From Zhihengliuella salsuginis (lineage in GTDB: Bacteria > Actinomycetota > Actinomycetes > Actinomycetales > Micrococcaceae), in contig NZ_BMXK01000007.1 in assembly GCF_014651715.1 (NCBI RefSeq), forward strand, positions 62,001 to 126,000: a stretch of 64,000 nt of DNA. The letters are read 5' to 3'. The notes below the pieces were generated by a model that saw nothing but the letters and a program-made list of their open reading frames with translations, did not search any database and had not been told where the DNA came from. The position numbers and the translations under genes are program-made. Below, piece by piece: positions 28,790 through 42,145 of the stretch. Positions within the stretch are counted from its first letter, which is position 1; every line of letters begins with the position of its first letter.

Positions 28790-29536
28790 TCACGCGGTCA
28801 CGCTGGCGTGCTCACGCATGTTGTGGGATCCGGTCTCGACCCAGATCGTGTTGTGCACGATCCGGTCCATGATCGCGTCGGCGTGGACTCCGGAGCCGAG
28901 GCGCTGGTGCCAGTCCTTCTTCGCGTACTGGGTGCAGAACACCGTCGACGCGGTGTCGTAGCGTCGCTCGAGCAGTTCGAGGAGCATGCTGCGCATGGCC
29001 TCGTCGGGGTGGTCCAGGAGCCATTCGTCGATCACCAGCAGGGTGAACGCCGCGTACTTCTTCAGGAACTTCGTGGTCCCCAGCGGCTTGTCTCTGGCCA
29101 TCGCCCACGCTTCCTCGAGGTCGGGCATGCGGATGTAGTGGGCCCGGATCCTGTGCTGACAAGCCTGCTTGGCCAGCGCGCAGCCCAGGTAGGACTTCCC
29201 CGAACCGGTGAAGCCCTGGAGGACGACGTTCTGCTGCCGGTCGATGAACGAGCACGTGCCGAGCTGGGCGATGACGTTGCGGTCCAGCCCGCGTTCGTCC
29301 ACCCGGTCCAGCCGGCGCAGGTCCGCCCCCGGGTAGCGCAGCCCGGCCCGCCGGATCAGGCCTTCGATCTTGGCGTGGTTGAACGTGGAGTGCGCTTCAT
29401 CGACCACGAGCCGGAGCCGGTCCTCGAAGCCCATGCCGAGCGTGAGGTTCTCGTCCTGCTCCTCGAGGGCCTCCAGCAGCGGTGCTGCCCCCATTTCGCG
29501 CAGTTTGCGTTTGGTTTCCAGATCGATCCCGCTCAC
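28790..29536 (-). CDS. istB: IS21 helper ATPase IstB
   Basis: IstB is the AAA+ transposition helper that loads and activates the IstA transposase at the target. The 248-residue protein starts at GTG 29536, overlapping the istA stop (GTGA). Walker A is GFTGSGKSYLGCALA near residue 106, and Walker B FTLLVIDEWLLD near residue 167. The N-terminal IstB-specific domain precedes it (LETKRKLREMGAAPLLEAL). A longer in-frame reading overlaps istA and is rejected. Length is typical, so the element is probably competent. Confidence 0.94.
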   Translation of the reverse strand: MSGIDLETKRKLREMGAAPLLEALEEQDENLTLGMGFEDRLRLVVDEAHSTFNHAKIEGLIRRAGLRYPGADLRRLDRVDERGLDRNVIAQLGTCSFIDRQQNVVLQGFTGSGKSYLGCALAKQACQHRIRAHYIRMPDLEEAWAMARDKPLGTTKFLKKYAAFTLLVIDEWLLDHPDEAMRSMLLELLERRYDTASTVFCTQYAKKDWHQRLGSGVHADAIMDRIVHNTIWVETGSHNMREHASVTA

Positions 29537-31095
29537 TTGGCCCCTCCCGCGTAGTAGTCGGCGCCGCGGACGTACCCGCCGTGTTCGACGGGCTCGTCCC
29601 GTGAGGGTCTGAGCCATTCGGCCTGGTCCTGTCCGGTGGCCAGAATCGGCTGCAGGTGCGCGTACCGCGGTGAGCGCACCGGTCCGGTCAGGACGATCCG
29701 GCAGGCCGCCTCGACGCGGTCGGCGGAGCACCTCCGGACCAGGCGCAGCACGGCGCGGGCGGCGTCCAGGCCCTGTTCGTCGACGGGCACGGACTCGAAG
29801 ATCCGGTTCACGACGACGACCGCGTTCGGCCCGATCCGCTCGGCCCATTCACGCGCTCTGGGCGCATCCCAGGGCTGGTACTTCTGCCCGGCGGGCAGGT
29901 CGGCGTCGTTGGTGCGGTACTCGTTGGCCGAGCCCTCGGGCAGCAGCAGGTGGCTGCTCAGCCGCTCGGCGCCCCGATAGACCTCGAGGGTGCGGTCGGT
30001 GACGCGCAGGTCGACTCTCGCGCCGATCTGCGCGAACGGGACCGAGTAGTAGTTCCGTTCCCAGGACACGTGGCCGTTGCGGGCCACCCTGCGGCCGTAG
30101 GCCCACCGGCTGATCTCGTAGGCGATCTGCGGCAGCGGTGTCAGCAGCGGCTTCTCCTCCGCTTTGAAGACGCTGGCCCGGGAGCCGGGCCGTTTCTGGA
30201 ACGGCTCGGCGTTGTAGTCCCGGACTCTCTCGGTGATCGCGGCCTTGAGCTCGGGCAGCGTGGCGAACCGCTGGTCCCGCAGATCGGCGATGACGCGCAT
30301 CGCGACATGCCAGACAGTGTTCTCCACGCTGGCCTTGTCTTTCGCCCGCCGCACCCGCCCGGGCAGCACTGCCGCGGAGTAGTGGGCGGCGAGCTCCCGG
30401 TAGGCGTCGTTGAGGACGATCTCGCCGTCTCTGGGATGTTTGATGACTCCGGTCTTGAGGTTGTCGGGAACGATTCTGGGCGCCGTGCCGCCGAACGCTT
30501 CGAACATGGACACGTGGGCCCGCAGCCAGGCGTCCTGCTTCATGTCCAGGGTCGGCTCGACGAAGGCGTACCGGCTGAACGGCAGGCATCCGACGAACAG
30601 GTACACCGTCCTGGCTTGCCCCGTCACCGGATCATGCAGTTGCATCGTCGGTCCGGACCAGTCGACCTCGACCGTCTGACCAGCTTTGTGGCCGACGCGG
30701 GAAGCGGCGCCGGTGACCATCACGTGGCGCTGATAGGTGCGGCAGAACCGGTCGTAGCCCATCGCCGGGTCCTTCCTCACTGCGCAGGCGTCGAGGTACT
30801 CGCCGTGCAGCAGTTTCAGCGTCACCCCGACCCGGGCCAGCTCACGGTGGATCCTGTCCCAGTCCGGCTGGGCGAACACGCTCTGATGCTCACCGCGACC
30901 CGGGAACAACAGCTCGTACACCTCGGCCTCCGGGCGGTCCCGGATCTCGTCCCAGCCGAGGCCGGCAGCGTCGGCGGCTTCCAGCACCGCCGTGATGGAT
31001 TTGCGCGACATTCCCTGCGACGCGGAGATCGCCCGACCGGAGAGCCCCTCCGCCCGCAACTGCAGAACGAGCTTCGCTCTGATCTTTCGTACCAT
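29533..31095 (-). CDS. istA: IS21 transposase IstA
   Basis: A 520-residue DDE transposase. It begins MVRKIRAKLVLQLRAEGLSGRAI, a helix-turn-helix region, behind AGGAG. The catalytic core shows VEVDWSGPTMQ (first Asp, near residue 143), RIVPDNLKTGV (second Asp) and DKASVENTVWH (Glu). The C-terminal beta-barrel region has NYYSVP, typical of IS21/IS408-type transposases. No frameshift or internal stop is seen. It is co-oriented and overlapping with istB. Confidence 0.94.
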   Translation of the reverse strand: MVRKIRAKLVLQLRAEGLSGRAISASQGMSRKSITAVLEAADAAGLGWDEIRDRPEAEVYELLFPGRGEHQSVFAQPDWDRIHRELARVGVTLKLLHGEYLDACAVRKDPAMGYDRFCRTYQRHVMVTGAASRVGHKAGQTVEVDWSGPTMQLHDPVTGQARTVYLFVGCLPFSRYAFVEPTLDMKQDAWLRAHVSMFEAFGGTAPRIVPDNLKTGVIKHPRDGEIVLNDAYRELAAHYSAAVLPGRVRRAKDKASVENTVWHVAMRVIADLRDQRFATLPELKAAITERVRDYNAEPFQKRPGSRASVFKAEEKPLLTPLPQIAYEISRWAYGRRVARNGHVSWERNYYSVPFAQIGARVDLRVTDRTLEVYRGAERLSSHLLLPEGSANEYRTNDADLPAGQKYQPWDAPRAREWAERIGPNAVVVVNRIFESVPVDEQGLDAARAVLRLVRRCSADRVEAACRIVLTGPVRSPRYAHLQPILATGQDQAEWLRPSRDEPVEHGGYVRGADYYAGGAK

Positions 31096-31151
31096 TGATC
31101 TTCTCCTTCTGCCGTGTGCCCTATACACACGGCAGAAGGAGCCTAAGCATG

Positions 31152-31256
31152 GTGGCCCCCGAGCACCCCACTGCCGGCCCCCAAGCCCGCTATCCGGGAA
31201 TCAGCGCAGCGGCCCCCGAAGGCACGACTGATGGACCCCAACGAAGCGAATATTCA
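31152..31256 (-). repeat. Right IS21 terminal and subterminal repeats
   Basis: Inverted counterparts of the left-end boxes lie at about 31154-31160, 31176-31182 and 31211-31217 (GGCCCCC on the plus strand), and the outer end is CGAATATTCA finishing at 31256. The right end interrupts the AraC-type gene. Confidence 0.75.
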
Positions 31257-31792
31257 CCAGTGGGTTCGACGTCGTTGAGGCCAGCGATGCGCTCTCGCGT
31301 CTCGGCAGCAATGGACCGCTCGAACTCAATGATGTGCGGGTTGGGCCCAGAGTGAATCACGGGCACGGTGGCGGAAAGGCCCGCCAGGGTGAATGCGGGC
31401 ATGTCGACGATCCGGTGCTTCATCGGGGTCGTCCCTTCTACTCGTAGATGAAATGAGAGTCGAGACTGGGAAGCCAGTGATGCTCCGGATGTTCTCGCGG
31501 CCCCGGGACTGATCCCGTGGACGCCTTTGAAAGCCCGCGTGAATGCTTCAGCCGAGGTGTAGCCGTACTTCACGGCCGTCTCTAGGACGCCTTCGCCGCG
31601 GATCAAGTCCGCTGCCGCGATGGTCATCCGCCGGCGCCGAATGTACTCCGAGACTGGCATTCCGGCCAGCGTCGAGAACATCCGGCGGAAGTGGTATTCG
31701 CTCGTGGCCGCAGCCCGTGCGACGTCGGCGATGTCAATGTCCGCGGCCAGATCCGCTTCGATCATCTCGATCGCCTGATTCCACTGCTGCAC
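31257..31792 (-). pseudogene. AraC-family regulator with GyrI-like domain, 3' end lost at IS21
   Basis: The surviving about 178 codons start at GTG 31792 (VQQWNQAIEMIEADL) behind GGGAGG. Residues about 8-100 form two AraC helix-turn-helix motifs (IADVARAAATSEYHFRRMF and LETAVKYGYTSAEAFTRAFK). After a linker, MKHRIVDMPAFTLAGLSATVPVIHSGP begins a GyrI-like effector-binding domain. Full-length proteins of this type are near 280-290 residues, so most of the effector domain is missing. Beyond 31256 the frame runs 22 codons into the IS before a stop. The missing 3' end is not present left of the IS, so the gene is broken by more than simple insertion. Confidence 0.85.
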
Positions 31793-31912
31793 GTCGGCCT
31801 CCCTGTCTCACTTTCAAGCTACGCAGCCGGGGCCGTGCCCCGCCCGACGATCGATGCCCGATATCGTCAGCCTCCGGGCTGCTTAGAACAGGGCTGTTCC
31901 GACCCTCCGGTG

Positions 31913-34900
31913 CTACCCTGCGAGGTCGTCGGCCTTCGTCCCGCTGAAGCGCTCCATGACCGTGCGGAAGTTGTAGAGGGTTCCCTCGTCGAAGAGGACC
32001 AGTGGATCCTGGGCGATGTCGGTGTAGGGCGGCGAGAAGAGCATGTCGAGAGTCATGCGGCCGTTGCGCGTCAAGTGGTCCACCATCATGTTCAGCATCT
32101 GCTGCTGGCGGGTGTCGAGTATAGAGCCGACGACGAATTCTGCGAACGATTCGCGGACGGCATCGCGGTCGAGCCCCACGAGAGACTTGATGAAGGACGC
32201 GAGGTCTTGCCCAGCGAGTTCGTGCAGCTTCGAAGCCGGGACTTTGCCGTCCTCGAGAACCAGCGATTCGAGGGTTTCCAGATCCTGGTCCGTCAGCGGG
32301 CGGCCTCGGCGGAGCTTTTGGATGACCAGATGGTCCAGATGCTTCTCGAGGTGGGCCTTGATGTGCAAGCGGTAGTTCTCGATGTCGAGGCTGGGCGCCG
32401 TTAGCTCGCCGTCGCTCACGCCGATGAGTGTGTCTTCGAAGTCAGAGTAAACAGGCTTGCGCTTGGCCTTCTCCAGCACGGGAATCAAGTCACGCAGCGC
32501 GGTGCGGACGCGCTCAAGCCACGCTGGGTCCTGCCCCGACCACGCGACGCCTGTGTCTTCGATATCGAGGATCGCCTCGATGACCTGACGGTGCTTGCCG
32601 ATGGAGGTCTCGTGGAGCCGCTCCGCCAGAGCGCCGGCGAGGGCGCTCAGCTGCCTGCCAAGTTTGAGCGCAGCCGACTCGTCGTGCGTCAGCGCCGCGA
32701 GCTGCAGACTCAACGCCAGCAGGTCGAAGCGGCGTGCCTCGTGGCTCCCCTGGACGGGCAAGGTATCCGCGAGACCTGACAGCTCCTGCTCGGCCTCGAC
32801 TTCGTCGACGTCGCTCAAGCCGTCCCATGCCTGTCCTTCAGAGAACTTCTCGACGGCGGCCAAATGCGGGCGAACTAGGAAGTTGCCGCGTTCGAGCCGA
32901 CGCACCTGGCCGTGCAGTGTGTCGCGCAGGTCGGCGATGTAGGCGCCGTCGTATCCGATCCGGCCGGCGGCGACGAGCGCCCGGGCGCGGGTGGTGAACG
33001 TCCGCGCGGCAAGCGAGTGCACAAGACGCGTCTCAGGTGCGTCTCCCCCTGCGTTGAAAAAGTCGACGTTGCCGCAGACGTCGAAGATGATGAAGTCCTT
33101 CTTGTGCATTCCCGGGCCGTAGAGATCCGGGCGCAGGCGGGTACCGCGGCCGACCATCTGCCAGAACTTGGTCTTTGACTTGACCTCTTTGAAGAAGACG
33201 AGGTTCACAACGTCGGGCACGTCTATGCCGGTGTCGAGCATGTCAACGCTGATGGCGATCTCAGGGCGCTTCTCCGGTTCAGCGAAGGAATCGATGAGCA
33301 TCTGGTTGTGGTTGACGCTGTGGGTGATCACGCGCGCGTAGTCTCCGCTGTGCTGCGGGTAATTGGCGTCGAAGCGCTCCTTGATGAATTCTGCGTGGTC
33401 TTGGTTCCTAGCGAAGACGATCGTCTTGCCGATGACGTCACCGCCGGAGACACGGTGCCCCTGGGACATGAGGACTTCCAGGACCTTGTCGACGGTGTCC
33501 GCGTTGAAAAGCCACTTGTTCAGGTGTGAGGTGTCCACGGAGTCGGGGATGTCTCCGTCCTCACTCCATTCAAAGGTGTCCCACTCGGCCCGCTCTTCTT
33601 CGCTCAGCTCGTCGTATTTGACGCCGCGGCGCATGAATCCGAGCTCGATGTTCCGCACTGAGTACGGAACGAGGTAGCCCTCCTCGATCGCCTGCTCGAG
33701 CGGGTAGGCGCTGGTTGGTTTTCCGCTCTCGAGCTCGAAGAGGCCGTAGGTGTTCTTGTCGATCTCGTCCCGGGGCGTCGCCGTCAGACCGACGAGGTAA
33801 GAGTCGAGGTAGTCGAAGATCCGCCCGTACTTCTGGTAGACGGAGCGGTGAGCCTCGTCGATGATCACCAGGTCGTAGTAGCCGATCCCCCGCCAGTCCG
33901 CGCCGAGGGCCCTGCCCTCCGTCGAGGCCGCGATCATGTTCATCATTGTGGGGTAAGTGGCCAAGTGGAGGCGCGAGGAGGAAGCGTCGTCGTGGCCAAT
34001 CCCCAAGCGCGCTGGCGAATAGCCAGAGAGCAATTGTCCGAAGACCTTCTTCGCCTGGTTGACCAGCGCGTTGCGGTCAGCGAGGAACAGCACCCGCTTG
34101 GCCCAGCGCGCCTCCATGAGGAGTTTGGCGAGTGCGACGACGGTGCGCGTCTTCCCCGTTCCGGTCGCCATGACGAGCAGCGCTTTGCGGCGGTGTTCAT
34201 CGAAGGTCTCGGCGACGGCGCGGATGGCCTCCTGCTGGTACTGGCGGTCGGCGATGCCGGCGGGCACCGGAGCGGTCGCGAGGCGTTTACGCCCGGTGCG
34301 TCGTTCAATCATGAGCTCGAGCTCATCACGGGTATGGAAACCGAGGATGCGTCGCGGCGGGTAGCCGTCGCGATGGGCGCCGACGGTTCCGAAGGCAGCG
34401 TCGTCCCACACCCAATGCTCGTAGCCGTTCGAGTAGTAGATGACGGGGCGTCGGCCGAACTGCCGCTCGAGCGCGTCGGCGTAGAGGCGTGCTTGCTCCT
34501 CGCCACTCTTCGGGCTGGCTGAGGCTTTCTTGGCTTCAAGGACGGCGAGCGGGCGGCCGTCCCGGCCCCAGAGCACGTAGTCGGCGTAGCCGATGCCATC
34601 TTTGCTGCCGAATCCCGGCGGCAGTCCGGTGACTTGGAATTCGCGCGCCCGGGGCGCGTCGACGTCCCAACCGGCTTCACGCAGCTGGAGGTCGATGTAG
34701 ACACGTGTGGCGGCCTCGTCCAGGCCACCGAGGTCGAGCTCAGGGATCTTCTGTTCGGCATTGGCGGCTTTGATGCGCTCGAGCTCGGCGCGGGCGGCGT
34801 CGAGCTCCGACTGGAGCTTCTCCTTTTCGTCGCCGGCGGCTTCGAGTTCGGCGGCCAGCTTCGCCACCTCCGGCTGCGTCTTACTCGGCTGGGCGGGTTC

Positions 34901-35362
34901 GGCCGGTGTGGGTCGGAATCGTTCGAGATCGAGGGACGTTCCGGTGGCGACCCGACTAGCGTGATTCTCGGCGTAGGTGTGGCCGATCCAGACGGTGATG
35001 CGGAAGAGTCCGGTCAGTCCCGCCGCAGCGGCCGGGACGGAGATCGGCGACTGGGTATGAACAGCGGTGTTGCCGATCTTGCGGACGGCGTGCATTTGGT
35101 CGCGGACCGCCACGGGGACAAGTTTCTGGAACGTGAACTCGTTGAGCCGATTGTTGAGGTCGTCTTTAAGCGGCCGTTTGAGGGTGGCGTCGTACTCGTA
35201 CATCCAGCCAACGAGTTGCTCTAGCGCGCGTCGCGCGTACATGAGGCTGACGCGCGCGTCTCGGTAGGCGAAGAACTCAGCACGGTGGGCTTGGTCGGCG
35301 ATGGCTGGCCATTGCGCTTTTAAGAATCCGAAGTTGGATTCCGGCTGACTAGTCTGCGCCAC
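31913..35362 (-). CDS. hsdR: Type I restriction enzyme R subunit
   Basis: HsdR is the ATP-driven translocase and nuclease of a type I restriction complex. The 1149-residue protein starts at GTG 35362 (VAQTSQPESNFGFLKAQWP) behind AAGGGG. Residues about 10-140 resemble the DUF4145 domain found at the front of some HsdR proteins, followed by a coiled coil about 165-205. The nuclease domain has ADYVLW (Asp261) and LEAKK (Glu276, Lys278). The helicase has ATGTGKT (399-405), DEAH (502-505), LTATP (526-530) and a later VGRGTR motif VI. The C-terminal region resembles the EcoEI R C-domain. All catalytic motifs are intact. It is the last gene of the operon, 127 bp after the NERD gene. Confidence 0.95.
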   Translation of the reverse strand: MAQTSQPESNFGFLKAQWPAIADQAHRAEFFAYRDARVSLMYARRALEQLVGWMYEYDATLKRPLKDDLNNRLNEFTFQKLVPVAVRDQMHAVRKIGNTAVHTQSPISVPAAAAGLTGLFRITVWIGHTYAENHASRVATGTSLDLERFRPTPAEPAQPSKTQPEVAKLAAELEAAGDEKEKLQSELDAARAELERIKAANAEQKIPELDLGGLDEAATRVYIDLQLREAGWDVDAPRAREFQVTGLPPGFGSKDGIGYADYVLWGRDGRPLAVLEAKKASASPKSGEEQARLYADALERQFGRRPVIYYSNGYEHWVWDDAAFGTVGAHRDGYPPRRILGFHTRDELELMIERRTGRKRLATAPVPAGIADRQYQQEAIRAVAETFDEHRRKALLVMATGTGKTRTVVALAKLLMEARWAKRVLFLADRNALVNQAKKVFGQLLSGYSPARLGIGHDDASSSRLHLATYPTMMNMIAASTEGRALGADWRGIGYYDLVIIDEAHRSVYQKYGRIFDYLDSYLVGLTATPRDEIDKNTYGLFELESGKPTSAYPLEQAIEEGYLVPYSVRNIELGFMRRGVKYDELSEEERAEWDTFEWSEDGDIPDSVDTSHLNKWLFNADTVDKVLEVLMSQGHRVSGGDVIGKTIVFARNQDHAEFIKERFDANYPQHSGDYARVITHSVNHNQMLIDSFAEPEKRPEIAISVDMLDTGIDVPDVVNLVFFKEVKSKTKFWQMVGRGTRLRPDLYGPGMHKKDFIIFDVCGNVDFFNAGGDAPETRLVHSLAARTFTTRARALVAAGRIGYDGAYIADLRDTLHGQVRRLERGNFLVRPHLAAVEKFSEGQAWDGLSDVDEVEAEQELSGLADTLPVQGSHEARRFDLLALSLQLAALTHDESAALKLGRQLSALAGALAERLHETSIGKHRQVIEAILDIEDTGVAWSGQDPAWLERVRTALRDLIPVLEKAKRKPVYSDFEDTLIGVSDGELTAPSLDIENYRLHIKAHLEKHLDHLVIQKLRRGRPLTDQDLETLESLVLEDGKVPASKLHELAGQDLASFIKSLVGLDRDAVRESFAEFVVGSILDTRQQQMLNMMVDHLTRNGRMTLDMLFSPPYTDIAQDPLVLFDEGTLYNFRTVMERFSGTKADDLAG

Positions 35363-35489
35363 GCGTTTCCCCTTAATCTGCGGCGTGCTCAAAGCGTCCT
35401 TGCTTGTCAGCCTACCGGCATTACACAACCACGGTCGGCCATGCTGGCTCAGCACAGGAGTGAATCGCGCTCTCCATGATCCCCGGCCG

Positions 35490-36440
35490 TCAGATCCTCG
35501 AAGGTCGCATTGCGGCGAAGCTTCCGAACCCCGTGCTATCACCGGCGTAGGGCTCGAGTGCTTGCATCACGCTCTCAACGTCAACGCGTTGGGGACCTAG
35601 GCTGCTCTTGAGGATGTAGCTCAGCCGATTCCGGTCGAACACACGGACGTTCCAGGTCGTCTGGAAATCGGCAGCATGCAATTTGACCTCCGGGTGCGAG
35701 TAAAAGACGCACGCTTCGACCCAACTCAGAGTGAGGCCGAGTTCACTCGCGAAGACCCGAAGGTCGTTCGCCTGCCGCTTCGCCTGGAGAACCGGCACTT
35801 GCCCCTTGTCCTCGTTGCCACTCGTTGCGATTCGGATCCGCCCCTGGCTACCACCAATATGAATGGCGAAGTGATCACCAAGGTCTTCTGCTGCAACGAG
35901 TGACCCAAGATCTCGGTGAAGCGTTGACGGCTTCTTCCCGTCGCAGACGATCCCCTTCCACCCCTTGTTCTCGATAAGGATGACTTTTTCGGTGGTGACG
36001 ATGATGTGATCGATCTGTCGCCGGTAGTAATGGCCACGGGTCGGCCTTCCCCTGAGGAAGACGAGGTTCGTCAGCATGACGCCATCAAGTTTCTGCTGCC
36101 TGCAGGCTTCGAGCAGCGCCAAACGAGATTCCAAGTCATAGTCCAACGAGCTGGCTAGATAGGTGTGAAGCTGCTTCTCGCGGGCCTTCGCTTCGGCTTG
36201 ATCGTTGGCGGCGCTCGATTGCAATTCGGCAAGCTGGGTCATTGATTTTTCGAGTGTGCGACGGTGCTCTGCGGATGCTTGTCCAGACTCTTGCTTGTGA
36301 GCTTCCGTCAGTGCCGCGACGCGGGCATCATGCGCCGCTGCGATTCGAGCAGCCTGCCGACGGCGAATCACCGCATAGCCAATCAGCGCAGCCGCGAGCA
36401 GGACCGTCAGGCCCCACGGCAGCCAATCCATCGGTGTCAT
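35490..36440 (-). CDS. Membrane-anchored NERD-domain (nuclease-related) protein
   Basis: A 316-residue protein with one N-terminal membrane helix at about residues 8-24 (WGLTVLLAAALIGYAVI), then a charged, probably coiled-coil region to about residue 95, then a NERD domain. The NERD core reads RRQIDHIIVTTEKVILIENKGWKG: Asp144, Glu157 and Lys159 form a plausible PD-(D/E)xK active site. NERD proteins are linked to DNA processing and often accompany defence genes, but their biochemistry is poorly known. It lies 35 bp after the Mrr-like gene and before hsdR, all in the same direction. ATG 36440 is chosen; a TTG nine bases upstream is possible. Confidence 0.82.
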   Translation of the reverse strand: MTPMDWLPWGLTVLLAAALIGYAVIRRRQAARIAAAHDARVAALTEAHKQESGQASAEHRRTLEKSMTQLAELQSSAANDQAEAKAREKQLHTYLASSLDYDLESRLALLEACRQQKLDGVMLTNLVFLRGRPTRGHYYRRQIDHIIVTTEKVILIENKGWKGIVCDGKKPSTLHRDLGSLVAAEDLGDHFAIHIGGSQGRIRIATSGNEDKGQVPVLQAKRQANDLRVFASELGLTLSWVEACVFYSHPEVKLHAADFQTTWNVRVFDRNRLSYILKSSLGPQRVDVESVMQALEPYAGDSTGFGSFAAMRPSRI

Positions 36441-36475
36441 GCGGTGCAATACCTTTCCACGTCGCTGGGAGCGTC

Positions 36476-37408
36476 TTACTCGAAGAAGTCTTCGTCGATA
36501 TCCACGACGTGATATGTCCGCTTGGTCTGGACACCGACGCGGTACTTGATCATGAGGCTCACCAAGCGTTGACCATCGATAAGAATCACCCGTGTAGGTA
36601 TAGCCCCCGCATACTCTCGCGCATGCCTCGTGAACGCACTTGTCGTAATAAAAACACCCTTCGCGGCTCCGAACCCGTGAAGAGCACCAATGAACGCCTG
36701 GATCTGTTCACGCCCCACGGTGTTGCCGTCCCCGTAGCGCTTGGCCTGCACATAGAGCCGGTCAAGCCCGAGCGGGTCCTGGTCGATCAGCCCATCCACG
36801 CCACCATCACCCGTGCCGCCGATGCGCATGCCACGCTGTTCGGCACCGCCGTACCCCATTCCAAGGAGTAGCTTGACCACTGCCTCCTCGAAGAAGTCGG
36901 GGTGGCTCTCACGCAGCCGGTTGAGCAGCTGCTCGCCGACCTCGCCGTGAATTCGGTCGATAGCTGATTCGATCTGCTCTACCGGGTCGGTTGCGACGAG
37001 CTCATCAGCGACGACGGTGTCCGGTTTGTCGTCAGCGGTGCCTTTCTTGGGCCAAAATTCTCGGAAAAGCAGCCTGGCCTCGCCGAAACTCTCGATTCCA
37101 TCCGGGTTGGCATCGTGCCAAGCCCTACCCTGCTCGGTGACGCGGTACATTGCGCGTTCGGGGCGCTCGATCCACCCGGCTTTTGCGAGGTTGCTGATCG
37201 CCCAACCGATTCGTTGCTCTGCACGGCTTCCACCCGTGTTCAGCGTCTCGGCCTTAGCAGCGGGCGACAGATTCAGCTCCTCTATGACTCCTGCTACGAG
37301 GTCGCGACGCGCGATTGTTCGGCCGTCGTAGAGAACAGCAAGAACGGAACGAACCATGTGGGGCCAGATCGGCACTTCGGACTCAAGTTCACTGTGATCA
37401 TGCCCCAT
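36476..37408 (-). CDS. Mrr-like restriction endonuclease
   Basis: A 310-residue protein with the two-part Mrr layout. Residues about 12-100 form the winged-helix Mrr N-terminal domain (PHMVRSVLAVLYDGRTIARRDLV and RIGWAISNLAKAGWIERPER). Residues about 165-290 form the Mrr catalytic fold: FFEEAVVKLLLGMGY, then GGTGDGGVDG (Asp205) and LYVQAKRY (Gln221, Lys223), a D-QxK variant typical of Mrr enzymes. Mrr is a type IV enzyme that cuts modified DNA. The start ATG overlaps the hsdS stop (TGATG), so its translation is coupled to hsdS. A longer in-frame start inside hsdS is rejected. Confidence 0.9.
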   Translation of the reverse strand: MGHDHSELESEVPIWPHMVRSVLAVLYDGRTIARRDLVAGVIEELNLSPAAKAETLNTGGSRAEQRIGWAISNLAKAGWIERPERAMYRVTEQGRAWHDANPDGIESFGEARLLFREFWPKKGTADDKPDTVVADELVATDPVEQIESAIDRIHGEVGEQLLNRLRESHPDFFEEAVVKLLLGMGYGGAEQRGMRIGGTGDGGVDGLIDQDPLGLDRLYVQAKRYGDGNTVGREQIQAFIGALHGFGAAKGVFITTSAFTRHAREYAGAIPTRVILIDGQRLVSLMIKYRVGVQTKRTYHVVDIDEDFFE

Positions 37409-38574
37409 CAGAGTTCTCCTTTGAATGCCCGTTCTTGTAGCGACACGAATAATCTTTCGTCTGTTTCTTGTGCTATGCGCAAGCAATCTCTCAATGAATC
37501 GATTGATTCGACTCTGCTGACGAATTCATGTTGCTCACGCAAAGGAGGTAGCGGCAAAGGCATTGACTTTATAATTCCCATATTTAGCCCAGACATAATT
37601 GCTCCCTTGGCTTGACGAAGCAGATGAATCCGCGACTCTGGATGCCAGAGAAACGCCCCCCTGAGGAAAGAAGGAAGGACCTTGGTCTGGTCGACTGTAA
37701 TTGCACAAATATGCTTCGTATTGATCGCTTGCGGCACACCACTCGGAACTACCACGCATCGTCCCGTGGTTCCCATGATACTTATGAGAACATCTCCCGA
37801 ATGGACAGTATAGCGCTCGAGCTGCTTGTACTTCTCCGCCGTAATGTAGCGACGTTGTCCCCAGCGAAACTCGTTTCCCACAACGTTGTCCAAGCCCAAC
37901 ACAGCGACACCTGAATCAACGAACTCGTCGTGCAAAAGCTGGCTACCGAACGGACCCGTACGTATACTCGATTTCTCCGATGCCGCAATTCCTTCGACCG
38001 TCGCCGAAGCCGTCCGCCCACCAAACATCTCGTGGAAGATCGACTGAGCGAGAGTGTCGAGGTGGGCGATGGCCTCCCTGCGCTTGGCGTGGAGCGCATC
38101 CGCCCTGTCAAGAATGTCAGCGATGCGCCGCTGCTCCGGAAATTCAGGAAGCGAAATCGGCATGCTCTTGAACACCGGGCCAGGAAGTGAGCGCCGACGG
38201 GCTGTCGAGCCCCGAAGCTTCGACTTGTAGAAGGATATTGCCCGAGAGGACCGAAGATAACGTTCAAGGTAGTCGCGGTCGACAGAACTCTCGTCAACGA
38301 TGTCCCACACTCCATACGCGGGACTGACGATACCCTCGTGTACAATCCGCTGGAAGGCCAGTACGGCTTCATCAATTGGAAAGCCAACAACCAGCTGGCC
38401 GCGTTCAACCACACGATACGCCGATAGATCTTTGCCAGCGACTGTTTTCTTGAATTTACTTGCCTGATGAACAAGTCCATCCCGCATCGTCATCGAAAGC
38501 ACTGGATACACGACGTCTCCAGCGATTCTCTTCGGTGCAGGTCGTACCAACTCACCTAGCTCGACCGTTCTCAT
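37408..38574 (-). CDS. hsdS: Type I restriction-modification specificity subunit S
   Basis: HsdS recognises the bipartite DNA target for both methylation and restriction. The 388-residue protein has two target recognition domains, about residues 1-130 and 185-335. Each is followed by a conserved helical spacer; the two spacers begin with similar blocks, KSMPISLPEFPEQRRIAD and KSMPLPLPPLREQHEFVS. The recognition sequence cannot be read from this. Its start overlaps the hsdM stop by 4 bp (ATGA). The gene is markedly lower in GC than its neighbours, typical of fast-exchanging S genes. Confidence 0.94.
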   Translation of the reverse strand: MRTVELGELVRPAPKRIAGDVVYPVLSMTMRDGLVHQASKFKKTVAGKDLSAYRVVERGQLVVGFPIDEAVLAFQRIVHEGIVSPAYGVWDIVDESSVDRDYLERYLRSSRAISFYKSKLRGSTARRRSLPGPVFKSMPISLPEFPEQRRIADILDRADALHAKRREAIAHLDTLAQSIFHEMFGGRTASATVEGIAASEKSSIRTGPFGSQLLHDEFVDSGVAVLGLDNVVGNEFRWGQRRYITAEKYKQLERYTVHSGDVLISIMGTTGRCVVVPSGVPQAINTKHICAITVDQTKVLPSFLRGAFLWHPESRIHLLRQAKGAIMSGLNMGIIKSMPLPLPPLREQHEFVSRVESIDSLRDCLRIAQETDERLFVSLQERAFKGEL

Positions 38575-40097
38575 CTGAGCAATCCCTTCAGCTCCGCAAG
38601 GCCCTCTGCGATCTCAGCCTCGAGCTTCTCGAGGTCCGCGATAATCTCCTCCGGAGCACGGTGCTCGACATCCTCGTACTCAATCTCCTTGTAGCGGTTG
38701 ATCGAGAGGTCGTAGTCGTTGTCCGCGAGGTCTTTCTTGGGGACCACAAACGAACGCTCGGTGCGCTCCCTGGCGCGCTCCGCCGTCGCACGTTCTTCGC
38801 CGAAGGCACCTCGCACGGCCTGCCATCGTTCGAGAACCTCCGGCAGATTGGACGTGCCCTCTGGAAGCGGGGTTCGCTTGTCGTCAAGGCTCAAGCCATC
38901 CGACTGCACGTCGTAGAACCAGACGCCCTCAGTGCCACCGGAGTTGGTCTTGGTGAAGAACAGCACCGCCGTGGAGACTCCCGCGTAGGGCTTGAAGACG
39001 CCGGAGGGCAGTTTCACGACTCCCTCGAGCATCTGGTCTTCCACGATCTGCTTCCGCAGGTCTTTGTGCGCCTTGGTCGAACCGAACAGCACGCCGTCAG
39101 GCACAATGACCGCCGCCCGGCCACCAGGCTTCAGCAGACGCAGGAAGAGCGCGAGGAACAGCAGCTCGGTCTTCTTGGTCTTGACGACCTGCAGCAGCTC
39201 CTTCGACGTGTTCTCATAGTCCAGGCTCCCGGCGAAGGGCGGGTTCGCGAGGATGAGGTCGTACTTCTCAGTGTCGGCAGAGTGAAGATCGGCTAACGAG
39301 TCGCGGTCCTCGATAACCGGGTTCTCAATGCCGTGCAGGAGCAGGTTCATAGCGCCGATGCGCAGCATGGTGGCGTCGAAGTCGAAGCCGTGGAACTGCT
39401 CGTAGTTGAAGAACGTCCGCCGATGGGCGTCGAACATCATCTCCGGGTTGGTCTCGCGGATGTACTCGCCCGCGGCCATGAGGAAGCCGGCGGTGCCCAT
39501 GGCCGGATCGCAGATCCGCTCCAGCGTCTTCGGCTCGCGCATGGCCACCAGCAGCTCGATGATGTGCCGCGGTGTGCGAAATTGGCCATTGGTGCCAGCT
39601 GAAGCAATCTTCGAGAGCATGTACTCGTAGAGGTCGCCCTTGGTGTCGCGATCGTCCATGTTGATCGCGCCGATCAGATCGACGGCCTTCTGGAGTAGAT
39701 GCGGCTTGGTGATCGTGAAGCGCGCATCCCGCATCTGGTGGCTGAACGCGGTGTCCGCCCCCTCGGCGGCCTTCGTCAACTCCTCGCGAATGAACGGGAA
39801 TGCGGACTCGGTGAAGACGCGGTACATCTCCTCTTGAGAGAAGTCCTTGAAGACCGACCAGCGCAGGTCACGGTAGGACCGGCCGAATTTGTCGGTCCCG
39901 TTGGGGAAGATCGGGCTGTCGATCTGCGTCCCGGTGAGATTGGCCTTCTTTTCAAGACGCAGCTGCTCCTCGTCGAGCCGCTTCAGGAACATCAGGTAGG
40001 TGATCTGCTCGATGACCTCAATCGGATTCGAGATGCCGCCGGACCAAAACGTGTTCCAGAGCTGATCGACTTGTGACTTGAGTTCCCCGGTAATCAT
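38571..40097 (-). CDS. hsdM: Type I restriction-modification DNA methyltransferase subunit M
   Basis: HsdM is the N6-adenine methyltransferase that protects host DNA. The 508-residue protein begins MITGELKSQVDQLWNTFWSG behind AAGGTGG. The HsdM N-terminal helical domain is followed by the methyltransferase core with the SAM motif DPAMGTAGF (197-205) and the catalytic NPPF (285-288). Coiled-coil sequence near the C-terminus (ADLEKLEAEIAEGLAELKGLL) contacts HsdS in this family. It is the first gene of the five-gene minus-strand operon. A GTG three codons upstream is an alternative start. Confidence 0.95.
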   Translation of the reverse strand: MITGELKSQVDQLWNTFWSGGISNPIEVIEQITYLMFLKRLDEEQLRLEKKANLTGTQIDSPIFPNGTDKFGRSYRDLRWSVFKDFSQEEMYRVFTESAFPFIREELTKAAEGADTAFSHQMRDARFTITKPHLLQKAVDLIGAINMDDRDTKGDLYEYMLSKIASAGTNGQFRTPRHIIELLVAMREPKTLERICDPAMGTAGFLMAAGEYIRETNPEMMFDAHRRTFFNYEQFHGFDFDATMLRIGAMNLLLHGIENPVIEDRDSLADLHSADTEKYDLILANPPFAGSLDYENTSKELLQVVKTKKTELLFLALFLRLLKPGGRAAVIVPDGVLFGSTKAHKDLRKQIVEDQMLEGVVKLPSGVFKPYAGVSTAVLFFTKTNSGGTEGVWFYDVQSDGLSLDDKRTPLPEGTSNLPEVLERWQAVRGAFGEERATAERARERTERSFVVPKKDLADNDYDLSINRYKEIEYEDVEHRAPEEIIADLEKLEAEIAEGLAELKGLLR

Positions 40098-40125
40098 GGA
40101 CACCACCTTAGTCCGAAATAGCCTG

Positions 40126-40143
40126 TTGCAGTTATAACTGCAA
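40126..40143. promoter_or_regulatory. 18-bp perfect palindrome in the hsdM/HTH divergent promoter
   Basis: TTGCAGTTATAACTGCAA is a perfect 18-bp palindrome in the 64-bp gap between hsdM and the HTH gene. Each half supplies a -35-like TTGCAG. On the minus strand it is followed after 17 bp by TATTTC; on the plus strand after 16 bp by TCTACA, 8 bp before the HTH start codon. A regulator bound here would block both promoters. The HTH protein encoded next door is the obvious candidate. Confidence 0.7.
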
Positions 40144-40161
40144 TGGGTCTACAGTTGACAC

Positions 40162-40599
40162 ATGACTACTGCACTCCTCGGCCCGACAGAGAGGCAACTC
40201 CTGTCCGACACGGACCTGCAGGCCCTCCGGAAATTCGCAGCCCTCCTCGGTGATGGCACAAGCCTCGAGGTGCGCCGTTCCGACCACAGCTCGACGGTGC
40301 CCGCCCATACGACACGCGTTCTGGAACGTCTTCTGAACCGCTTGGCGGAAGGTCGACCGGTCACGATCGGCAGCCTCCCAGCACAGATCACACCCAATAC
40401 CGCCGCGGAGCTCCTGAATGTCTCCCGGCCAACCGTGATGAAGATGATTCGTCAGGGGGATCTCAGCTCTTCGATGACTGGCTCTCATCACCGGCTGAAG
40501 TCGGATGATGTCCTGGCATTGCGGAGGAAGCGTCGCGCCGAACGACGCGAGGCTGCCTTGGAGCTGATGGAACTGGGCGACGAACTGGATCTCCCATGA
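40162..40599 (+). CDS. Excisionase/MerR-type helix-turn-helix protein, probable antitoxin
   Basis: A 145-residue protein. The N-terminal 75 residues are of unknown fold and probably a binding region. Residues about 80-115 (ITPNTAAELLNVSRPTVMKMIRQGDLSSS, then HHRLKSDDVLALR) form an excisionase-type (HTH_17) DNA-binding helix-turn-helix. The C-terminus is a charged helix ending ELMELGDELDLP. Such proteins upstream of a PIN-domain gene act as antitoxins and autorepressors. The start has no clear ribosome binding site and lies close to a -10-like element, so leaderless expression is possible. The PIN gene follows after 26 bp. Confidence 0.8.
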   Translation: MTTALLGPTERQLLSDTDLQALRKFAALLGDGTSLEVRRSDHSSTVPAHTTRVLERLLNRLAEGRPVTIGSLPAQITPNTAAELLNVSRPTVMKMIRQGDLSSSMTGSHHRLKSDDVLALRRKRRAERREAALELMELGDELDLP

Positions 40600-40625
40600 T
40601 CTCAGCGGGCCAGTGGATCTGACGC

Positions 40626-41246
40626 ATGCAGAAAGTACTCGTCGACGCCAATGTCCTGTACTCGCGCACCCTGCGCGACTGGATCGCGCTTCTGAGCACA
40701 TCACCGGCAGGAGAGCTCTTCGCCTGCCGGTGGACGGAAGACATCATGGCCGAAGCTATCCATGCCATTCGGAAGGCCAGGCCTGACCTGACCGGCGGTC
40801 AAATCGCTCACGTCCGCGAGAGCATCTCAAGAGCATTCGGCCCGGATGGACTCGTCCGCGACTACGAAGTACCTGACCCGGCACTGTTCAGCGATCCGCA
40901 CGACGCGCACGTCCACGGCGCGGCTCTGGCGTGTGGTGCCAGCATCCTCGTTACCAGCAATGTCAAGGATTTCCAAGACATCATGGACGACGACAACGCC
41001 AGCTACGAAGTCTTCACACCAGACGAGTTTCTGCTGCTGGTCAATGAGTCCGCCCCAGAATGCGTACGTGAGGTGATCGAGCGACAGGTCGAATACCTCA
41101 TCAAGAAGGAGCCCGAGTTCGATCTGCCCGGCAGACTCAAGCAGAGCGGAGCTGTGGAATTCGCCCGAGTCGTTGCCGAGCATCTGCAGAATCTGGACAT
41201 CGGGAAAATCTACGCCAGGGTCCAAAAAGCGACTGCTCTGGATTAG
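40626..41246 (+). CDS. PIN-domain ribonuclease-like protein, probable toxin
   Basis: A 206-residue protein. Residues 1-130 form a PIN domain: VDANVL with Asp7, acidic Glu38/Asp39, DPHDAHVHGAAL with Asp93, and TSNVKDF with Asp115, the usual metal-binding set. The remaining about 75 residues are helical and are an extension compared with simple VapC toxins of about 130 residues. PIN toxins cleave RNA. Its upstream HTH gene would supply the antitoxin. The stop codon overlaps the convergent GNAT gene's stop by 4 bp. Alternatively it could be a PIN protein with an anti-phage role in the restriction locus. Confidence 0.82.
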   Translation: MQKVLVDANVLYSRTLRDWIALLSTSPAGELFACRWTEDIMAEAIHAIRKARPDLTGGQIAHVRESISRAFGPDGLVRDYEVPDPALFSDPHDAHVHGAALACGASILVTSNVKDFQDIMDDDNASYEVFTPDEFLLLVNESAPECVREVIERQVEYLIKKEPEFDLPGRLKQSGAVEFARVVAEHLQNLDIGKIYARVQKATALD

Positions 41247-42145
41247 AACAGGACGGTCGCGAAGTCCCCGACCTTCTCAAAGCCCACCCGCTGGTAGGCG
41301 GCGAGGGCGGGGGCGTTGAAGTCGTTGACGTAGAGGCTCGTGACAGGAGCGATCATCAGCGCGTGGCGCACGACGGCGGCCATGTAGCCGGCGGCCAGCC
41401 CGCGGCCGCGGAACTCCGGGCTCATCCACACGCCCTGGATCTGCGTGACGTGGCGGGTGACCGTCCCGAGCTCCGATTTGAAGATCACGGCGCCGTCGGG
41501 GGCGATATCGACGAACGAGTGCCCCTGGTCGATCAGGGAGCGCACGCGCTGCCGGTAGGCTCCTCCCCCGCCGCCCAGCGGCGAGTAGCCCAGCTCCTCC
41601 TGGAACATGGCCGCGCAGGCCGGCAGGACGGCGTCGTACTCCTCGGGCACGGAAGGGCGCACGGTGGCCGCCGGGGGCACCGCCGGCGGGCAGCCCGTGG
41701 CGAGCAGGGGCTGGCTGGCCCGGATGTCGAAGGCGGTCTGGGGGCCGAAGCGCAGGACCTCCCACATCCCCCGGACCGCGGACGCCGGGCCGAAGAGCGA
41801 GGAGAAGGAGCGTCCCAGGCGGAGGACGGCCTCGCCGAACCTCTTGGCCTGGAGCGCGGTGCAGTTGAGCGGGACGATGTTCGCCCCGACCCAGCAGGCG
41901 CTGGTGAGCTGGCCGTCGTCGAAATAGCCGAGGACGAGGGGGCCGCCCTCCGGCGCGGCGGAACCGTGCACGTCGAGCTGCGCCCGCACGAAGATGTGGG
42001 CGACCGGATCGCGGTCGACCAGGCCCGACAGGTCCGCGGTGTCCTCGCCGGAGAGCACACGCACGGCCCGGGTGAGGCGGTCACCCGGCCCGATGGAGCG
42101 CTTCGGCGTCCTAAGAGACGCTGATGGAGGGGGTGCCGCCCTCAA
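41243..42145 (-). CDS. GNAT acetyltransferase with DUF4081 N-terminal domain
   Basis: About 300 residues. The N-terminal half ([23 protein letters not shown]) matches the DUF4081 domain, and the C-terminal half is a GNAT fold with acetyl-CoA loop [22 protein letters not shown] and [20 protein letters not shown]. The start is uncertain: TTG 42145 overlaps ispG by 35 bp and has GGAACC upstream, while GTG 42064 is possible. This gene next to ispG is standard in Actinobacteria, so it marks the return to core genome after the island. Substrate unknown. Confidence 0.85.

Follow-up and report, generated by a model that had tools for sequence, protein, structure and literature searches.

We analysed a stretch of 64,000 nucleotides of Zhihengliuella salsuginis (contig NZ_BMXK01000007.1, positions 62,001 to 126,000; hereafter the window), in which the genes hsdM, hsdS, mrr, a NERD-domain gene and hsdR follow one another on the minus strand. 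These genes probably constitute a mobile type I restriction-modification operon into which a type IV enzyme, Mrr, has been built, together with an optional accessory gene. The order hsdM-hsdS-mrr-(X)-hsdR recurs, mrr overlaps the hsdS stop codon each time and its presence follows the HsdM and HsdR trees, which argues that mrr is not a chance neighbour. An earlier note on this DNA had proposed a composite system that included both mrr and the NERD gene. The part concerning mrr is supported, and that concerning NERD as a defining part is not supported; the other embedded loci carry different genes, or none, in its place.

The earlier note had treated recurrence of the complete gene order as the mark of a defined system. 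Among the genomes searched, the exact order hsdM-hsdS-mrr-NERD-hsdR was found in the window genome only; the four-gene order hsdM-hsdS-mrr-hsdR, with or without a further gene before hsdR, recurred in 11 further loci of the family set, one of which is on a plasmid, as well as in a single genome from a different family. In the family set, 61 of 197 genomes (own included) gave an mrr match at E ≤ 0.001. The best 21 mrr places outside the window comprised 10 with the order M-S-mrr-(X)-R, 10 without an hsdM-S-R operon and one mrr-NERD pair (G092; genomes and loci are given by our own handles where they must be told apart). Among the 10 operon-less places, L081 retains a scrap of hsdM just upstream, L068 shows a helicase-like HsdR match at 24% and L082 an HsdS-like match about 7 kb away. 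Counting from hsdM instead, 23 of the 197 family genomes, own included, had a match at 1e-60. The mrr gene lies between hsdS and hsdR in 11 of them (own included) and is not in the operon in 10, three of which are ordered R-M-S and one of which (G131) was read for only about 300 bases beyond hsdS. Two genomes could not be scored, G142 because of a contig end and G045 because neither hsdS nor hsdR lies beside hsdM.

Beyond the family genomes, hsdM matched 31 plasmid records at 1e-100, and three neighbourhoods were read: Arthrobacter plasmid pA58H3 has the order M-S-mrr-R with a broken mrr, and mrr is absent from the hsd operons of pERGS1 and pA26BH1. In the order sample, hsdM was matched at 1e-150 in seven of 248 genomes, namely the own genome, G106 and five new ones. 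One of these, G920 from another family, shows M-S-mrr-AbiEi-like-R; the other four have no mrr within the 17 kb read. The class sample yielded mrr at 1e-40 in 10 of 394 genomes, the window's included, and in the other nine no HsdM was found within the 1.5-kb flanks covered; an HsdR-like helicase on the opposite strand (L135) and weak HsdS-like matches (L137) were seen near mrr. A tblastn search with the window Mrr matched 72 plasmid records. Type I genes stood beside mrr in six of 19 neighbourhoods, which were hand-picked for variety and hence give no rate. One of the six is pA58H3, described above; in the other five, the order is R-M-S-mrr on plasmids of Acetobacter vaccinii and Zymomonas ATCC 10988 (mrr being split in the latter), mrr-M-S-X-R on two Pseudoalteromonas plasmids and mrr-R-M-S, in fragmented form, on Vibrio anguillarum p15. 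Clusters of hsd and mrr in different gene orders thus occur on Proteobacteria plasmids. The remaining 13 neighbourhoods had no type I genes beside mrr within the stretch read, and some of them lie near other restriction genes, such as a type III res gene (L158) or a methyltransferase and a helicase gene (L159). No Mrr pattern match was obtained in viral contigs with a single-protein query, which detects close relatives only.

In all 13 embedded loci (12 family or plasmid loci and G920), an in-frame mrr start overlaps the stop codon of hsdS, as hand-checked for frame. The predicted start is ATG, or GTG in five of the 13. The trees comprised 31 rows for HsdM, two of them unlabelled (G142 and G045), and 29 rows for HsdR. 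On both, the mrr trait required three changes, and none of 500 shuffles, which ignore kinship, was as low. The main clade contains 12 rows with mrr and two without (G169 and pERGS1), to which the unscorable G142 is added on the HsdM tree. On the Mrr tree, copies inside and outside hsd operons are intermixed and many branches are weak.

The place after hsdS could be scored in 14 members of this lineage and holds Mrr in 12 and a GmrSD-type enzyme in one; in one neither was seen. The GmrSD gene of G169 lies right after hsdS (PF03235, 2.4e-34; PF07510, 2.4e-23), and in the sister of G169, pERGS1, no mrr was found and two annotated genes lie on the opposite strand in the gap between hsdS and hsdR. 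With GmrSD, another type IV family, occupying the place in a sister lineage, the position after hsdS has the appearance of a type IV slot. The gap between mrr and hsdR resembles a cargo slot. This gap holds the NERD gene in the window, an HTH_17-PIN pair in G192, an unassigned gene plus PDC-M03 in G048, a PIN gene on the opposite strand in G157 and two small genes in G098. In G040 there are two HipA-like genes with small partners on the opposite strand (one HipA was checked by Pfam), and in G099 a gene that appears lipoprotein-like by eye, also on the opposite strand. No evident gene was present in five of the 12 loci (G034, G150, G106, G140 and pA58H3). The two genes of G098 may be a BrnT/BrnA-like pair; Pfam gave just a sub-cut-off NikA-like match for one of the two. 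After GmrSD, G169 carries the PADLOC candidate pair PDC-M03A/B, which is also found between mrr and hsdR in G048. The pair of HipA_C and PDC-M03B genes lies at L115:10977-14801 after GmrSD and at L075 (G048) after mrr with one gene between, and from these positions it seems to move among the operons as one unit.

The coordinates and domain matches of the window genes are given in Table 1. The five minus-strand genes with their overlaps and gaps were confirmed by open reading frame (ORF) coordinates together with Pfam and PADLOC matches, and the catalytic motifs, which to the earlier note had seemed intact, were seen by eye in the translations. Start and stop of hsdM and hsdS overlap by ATGA and those of hsdS and mrr by one base (TGATG), in line with the proposed translational coupling of mrr to hsdS, which is predicted from sequence in each of the embedded loci. 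The gap is 35 bp between mrr and NERD and 127 bp between NERD and hsdR. The longest hsdR ORF starts at 35542, within the NERD gene; the start was taken as the GTG at 35362, which matches the start of the congener's HsdR ORF.

Table 1. Features of the operon, its divergent neighbours and the surrounding island, with positions in the window and E values of Pfam (PF) and PADLOC matches.
Feature	Positions	Strand	Evidence
hsdM, type I methyltransferase subunit	38571-40106	minus	PF02384 2.1e-61, PF12161 5.4e-15; PADLOC MTase_I 2.7e-186
hsdS, specificity subunit	37408-38574	minus	PF01420 1.4e-13; PADLOC Specificity_I 1.7e-95
mrr, Mrr-family type IV restriction endonuclease, winged helix + PD-QxK	36476-37408	minus	PF14338 8.5e-19, PF04471 4e-35; PADLOC mREase_IV 8e-72
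NERD-domain protein gene, ATG start	35490-36440	minus	PF08378 1.9e-8
hsdR, restriction and translocation subunit	31913-35362	minus	PF04851 9.8e-35, PF04313 3.5e-6, PF08463 1.1e-14
HTH_17 (excisionase-type) regulator gene, divergent from hsdM	40162-40599	plus	PF12728 2.7e-10
PIN-domain gene, putative toxin partner of the HTH_17 gene	40626-41246	plus	PF13470 2.6e-7
Defence island, 9.36 kb, between araC-like and GNAT genes	31893-41252		empty site in congeners, G+C
10-bp direct repeat TTAGAACAGG, left copy	31883-31892		homology to G020 empty site runs through left copy
10-bp direct repeat TTAGAACAGG, right copy	41243-41252		3' end of GNAT gene

HsdM_N, N6_Mtase, Methylase_S, Mrr_N, Mrr_cat, NERD, ResIII, HSDR_N and EcoEI_R_C all scored above the curated Pfam cut-offs. 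As in other type I systems, HsdM combines the HsdM_N and N6-adenine methylase domains, HsdS matches Methylase_S in two stretches with variable target recognition domains (TRDs) flanking a conserved middle, and HsdR carries a nuclease domain (HSDR_N), a superfamily 2 motor (ResIII) and EcoEI_R_C. The hsdR product further matches DUF4145 (1.6e-11, Pfam) and PADLOC REase_I (8e-161). Mrr possesses the winged helix (Mrr_N) and a catalytic domain (Mrr_cat) with D and QxK, intact in the window copy, and the NERD domain scored 35.2 bits against a gathering score of 22.1 for PF08378. The motifs DPAMGTAGF and NPPF in HsdM, GGVDG...VQAK in Mrr, QIDH...ENK in NERD and LEAK, GTGKT and DEAH in HsdR are what we take to be the catalytic or functional signatures of these proteins. 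Assignment of HsdR as an EcoAI-type equivalog was rejected because it stayed below the NCBIfam cut-offs (NF046051, 249.6 vs 550 bits; NF008521, 330.5 vs 729), and membership of MADS failed likewise (HsdM vs MAD2, 91 of 720 bits; HsdS vs MAD5, 44.7 of 400). One promoter-like site was seen where 1.8 were expected and 12 terminator-like sites where 7.8 were expected (standard deviation 3.0). The window contains no tRNA genes.

Most likely, HsdMSR would cut unmodified DNA and Mrr foreign-modified DNA, with NERD as an optional membrane-anchored accessory. Judging by their families, HsdM and HsdS would methylate adenines at host sites, and HsdR would join them, translocate and cut unmarked DNA. Mrr, translated in overlap with hsdS, may then cut foreign-modified DNA that escapes HsdR, its winged helix reading the mark and its PD-QxK domain cutting. 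In this lineage a type IV enzyme occupies the place after hsdS and the gap before hsdR takes changing cargo, a pattern that selection might maintain. Least firmly, NERD would be cargo gained beside mrr within the genus, a membrane-anchored protein with a nuclease fold that could degrade DNA near the membrane or serve as a backup effector. Since Mrr and GmrSD are described as modification-dependent (PMC12707154), such a complementary pair is the simplest mechanism. The suggestion of the earlier note that the operon may cut both unmodified and wrongly modified DNA is fitted by GmrSD in the place of mrr in a sister lineage.

Several observations weigh against this mechanism and against a fixed operon. 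Nearly half of the best family mrr places outside the window lack a surrounding hsdM-S-R operon, and nearly half of the scorable family genomes with HsdM, own included, lack mrr in the operon (10 of 21 in either count). NERD lies beside hsd genes in the window only. In two of the 12 family or plasmid loci (G106 and pA58H3) mrr is broken and hsdM, hsdS and hsdR are still present, so mrr is dispensable and can be lost while hsd stays. One Mrr copy outside an hsd operon has A for the presumed catalytic Asp, and no covariation was found between HsdS TRDs and the Mrr reader domain across 12 loci (Mantel r 0.02 and 0.01; p 0.42 and 0.43). In Zymomonas ZM4, one study that deleted an mrr-like gene saw no increase in plasmid uptake, although an increase had been seen in earlier work (PMC8432527).

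Among 23 Mrr sequences, pairwise identity averaged 0.47 in the winged helix, 0.32 in the linker and 0.75 in the catalytic domain; QAK was present in 23 of 23 aligned copies and Asp in 22. At the same genomic site, the window Mrr is 41% identical to that of G092 in the winged helix and 91% in the catalytic part, and 51% and 84% identical, respectively, to that of G048; for G034, from another genus, the values are 64% and 81%. Thus the winged helix is closer to that of another genus and the catalytic part closest to those of congeners, the pattern predicted by domain exchange. Along the mrr codons, identity steps up around codons 145-180. In hsdS, the DNA of the middle is up to 77% identical to G048 and that on either side about 33-45%, and hsdM and hsdR show about 66-86% DNA identity to this genome. 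These data would suit a single defence machine with two sides, each having an exchangeable reader, in which the place after hsdS is reserved for a type IV enzyme and NERD acts together with Mrr as a third, membrane-anchored effector. We regard this stronger reading as tentative, and so also its corollary that HsdS TRDs and the Mrr winged helix are swapped at one site within the genus with HsdM, HsdR and the Mrr nuclease domain staying in place. Co-adaptation of the HsdS TRDs with the Mrr reader was rejected, given the missing covariation.

The same-site comparison took in five genomes of the genus Zhihengliuella. In two of them, G020 and G072, the site is empty, the araC-like and GNAT genes being 94-95 bp apart. 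G048 carries hsdM (86% identical), hsdS (32%), mrr (61%), three other genes and hsdR (79%) at this site, and G092 carries mrr (64%) and NERD (54%), 15 bp apart, plus a C-terminal scrap of the HTH_17 gene. Across the genus, the site thus holds a full island in one genome, an island with different cargo in another and mrr-NERD lacking hsd in a third, and is empty in two. The G+C content is 0.54-0.67 in the island and about 0.65-0.74 in the flanks (1-kb windows). The repeat at both borders suggests integration at the end of the GNAT gene, and no integrase was seen within the island.

From G092 one could argue that mrr and NERD form a two-gene module of their own that merely sits in the hsd operon of the window strain, and the absence of hsd relatives from 20 kb around this pair, with no hsdM at 1e-60 in the genome, is in keeping with that. 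However, G092 is the sole other case, and its HTH_17 scrap suggests that its island once resembled that of the window and has since lost the hsd genes. No mrr is present at the other 24 NERD loci, nor NERD at the 10 mrr loci of the family that lack an hsd operon. We consider an independent module possible, though rather doubtful. In the preferred reading, NERD looks like a local add-on, cargo tied to mrr and not to hsd, because in this congener mrr and NERD are kept at the site and hsd is missing.

According to another explanation, the gap between hsdS and hsdR is a plain recombination hotspot for defence and toxin-antitoxin genes, and HsdMSR, Mrr and NERD are functionally unlinked. The varied cargo, the loss or breakage of mrr in several loci and the absent covariation of TRDs and reader would be expected from this. 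Random landing, on the other hand, predicts neither that mrr follows hsdS immediately and overlaps it with its start in all 13 loci nor that the trait is clade-bound, and GmrSD is found at the same place in the sister lineage. We judge a plain hotspot to be unlikely, and an operon with a built-in type IV enzyme and exchangeable cargo remains the better description.

Relatives of NERD were present in five of 197 family genomes and in three of 394 class genomes, one of them weak (own included in both), and a genome-contig search gave 25 loci; phylum-wide there were five short and weak matches, and on plasmids none at 1e-5. Among the 25 loci, only that of G092 has mrr beside NERD. No relatives of the window HsdM, HsdS or HsdR were found at E 0.001 around these loci within flanks of up to 10 kb, some ended by contig ends, a search in which unrelated type I families are undetectable. 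The five-gene order as a recurrent system was rejected, as no second NERD was found beside relatives of these hsd genes at the matches other than the one weak class match and the five weak phylum matches. An alignment of 19 relatives, the window protein among them, shows no variation at Q142, D144 and K159. The first 30 residues are hydrophobic and membrane-helix-like by eye, and the predicted model (mean pLDDT 83.6) shows a helix at 7-115 followed by a mixed alpha-beta domain. Its best structural matches, with Z up to 8.3, which is middling by the comparison tool's own scale, are Cdn1, VC1899, Can2, a repair endonuclease, EndoMS, McrC, SduA and an HsdR fragment, which, partly by their titles, appear to be nucleases of the PD-(D/E)xK kind. 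Foldseek gave no match at E 0.001 or better, and no PADLOC or NCBIfam model matched the NERD protein at 0.001. In Nesterenkonia haasae (L009:9435-10274) a NERD relative has an internal stop, and its neighbours are of the same kinds as those of the open copy L015 in another Nesterenkonia.

Mrr could also act as a policing device that kills or blocks cells with a wrong HsdM/HsdS pattern or an incoming foreign methyltransferase, with NERD as a backup suicide nuclease. Precedents for its elements exist: a foreign methyltransferase triggers the Mrr of Escherichia coli (PMC12707154), in type 2 BREX a backup and perhaps suicidal nuclease role has been suggested for NERD (PMC12839542), and PrrC is a lethal effector within a type I operon (PMC3874165). 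The lack of covariation between TRDs and reader argues against tight matching, and we hold policing to be improbable. Equally improbable is a housekeeping membrane role of NERD outside defence, to which the same layout as in SmdA, a protein acting in cell morphology (PMC9040797), and the non-defensive neighbours, by eye, of two Nesterenkonia relatives would point; the SmdA case does mean that NERD proteins anchored in the membrane are not necessarily defence nucleases.

Known systems share parts of this arrangement, as far as the passages covered of the cited papers describe them. The immigration control region of E. coli has type I hsd genes clustered with McrBC and Mrr, and GmrSD stands in place of McrBC in some genomes (PMC3874165, PMC12707154). 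Type I and Mrr-family genes are likewise found here at one variable island with a known empty site; in contrast to the mere clustering in E. coli, mrr lies inside the hsd operon and overlaps hsdS at the codon level, lineage-wide and in another phylum. The RRDM island of EPEC carries DarTG2 between hsdS and hsdR, a site named as a potential hotspot (PMC12255303). Accessory defence genes occupy the same interval in our operons, as an hsdS-coupled type IV nuclease and, separately, cargo rather than as a toxin-antitoxin system under RptR, and darTG was not named among the PADLOC matches listed for seven scanned proteins. EcoprrI also embeds an additional effector in a type I operon, the anticodon nuclease PrrC held latent by the complex (PMC3874165), whereas Mrr belongs to a DNA nuclease family. 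Complementary protection has been shown for BREX and BrxU (PMC8565348), which likewise pair a modification-based defence with a type IV enzyme, there BREX and the GmrSD family and here type I and Mrr. NERD domains occur in SmdA of Staphylococcus aureus, which has one transmembrane helix, as our protein also seems to have, a long helix and NERD (PMC9040797), in PglW, where NERD is fused to kinases (PMC12839542), and in Mokosh type I (PMC10952713); in the passages covered, none of these belongs to a type I operon. Searches of the open-access literature, mostly without subscription journals, gave no description that we recognised of an M-S-mrr-R operon or of NERD in a type I operon.

If the type IV slot is real, the type I operons of this lineage would block unmodified and foreign-modified DNA from one message. 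Modified phages would then lose their way of escape, and the repeated meeting of mrr and hsd in unrelated bacteria would be easier to understand. Such a slot would also provide a natural set of paired HsdS/Mrr readers for studying how a cell keeps a modification-cutting enzyme off its own adenine methylation. With the NERD gene there is also an opportunity to test the role of a domain that, as far as the authors of PMC9040797 knew, nobody had studied in bacteria before SmdA.

The divergent HTH_17-PIN pair, the island borders and the empty sites of two congeners go beyond the earlier note. Relatives of the HTH_17-PIN pair were observed between mrr and hsdR in G192, several kb beyond hsdR in G034 and, on the Dietzia plasmid pII, upstream of a helicase-mrr cluster, and the pair looks like a defence-linked toxin-antitoxin or regulator module. 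At 28790-31792, an istA/istB-like pair with rve and Mu-transpos_C_2 domains, an element that we presume to be of IS21 type, has truncated the araC-like gene adjoining the island. Outside the mrr clade, the gap between hsdS and hsdR of G137 and G788 holds PDC-S11 with a weak, sub-cut-off NucS_C match; this single-gene defence candidate lies at L118:7063-8139 and L172:8042-9118, in two species of different families.

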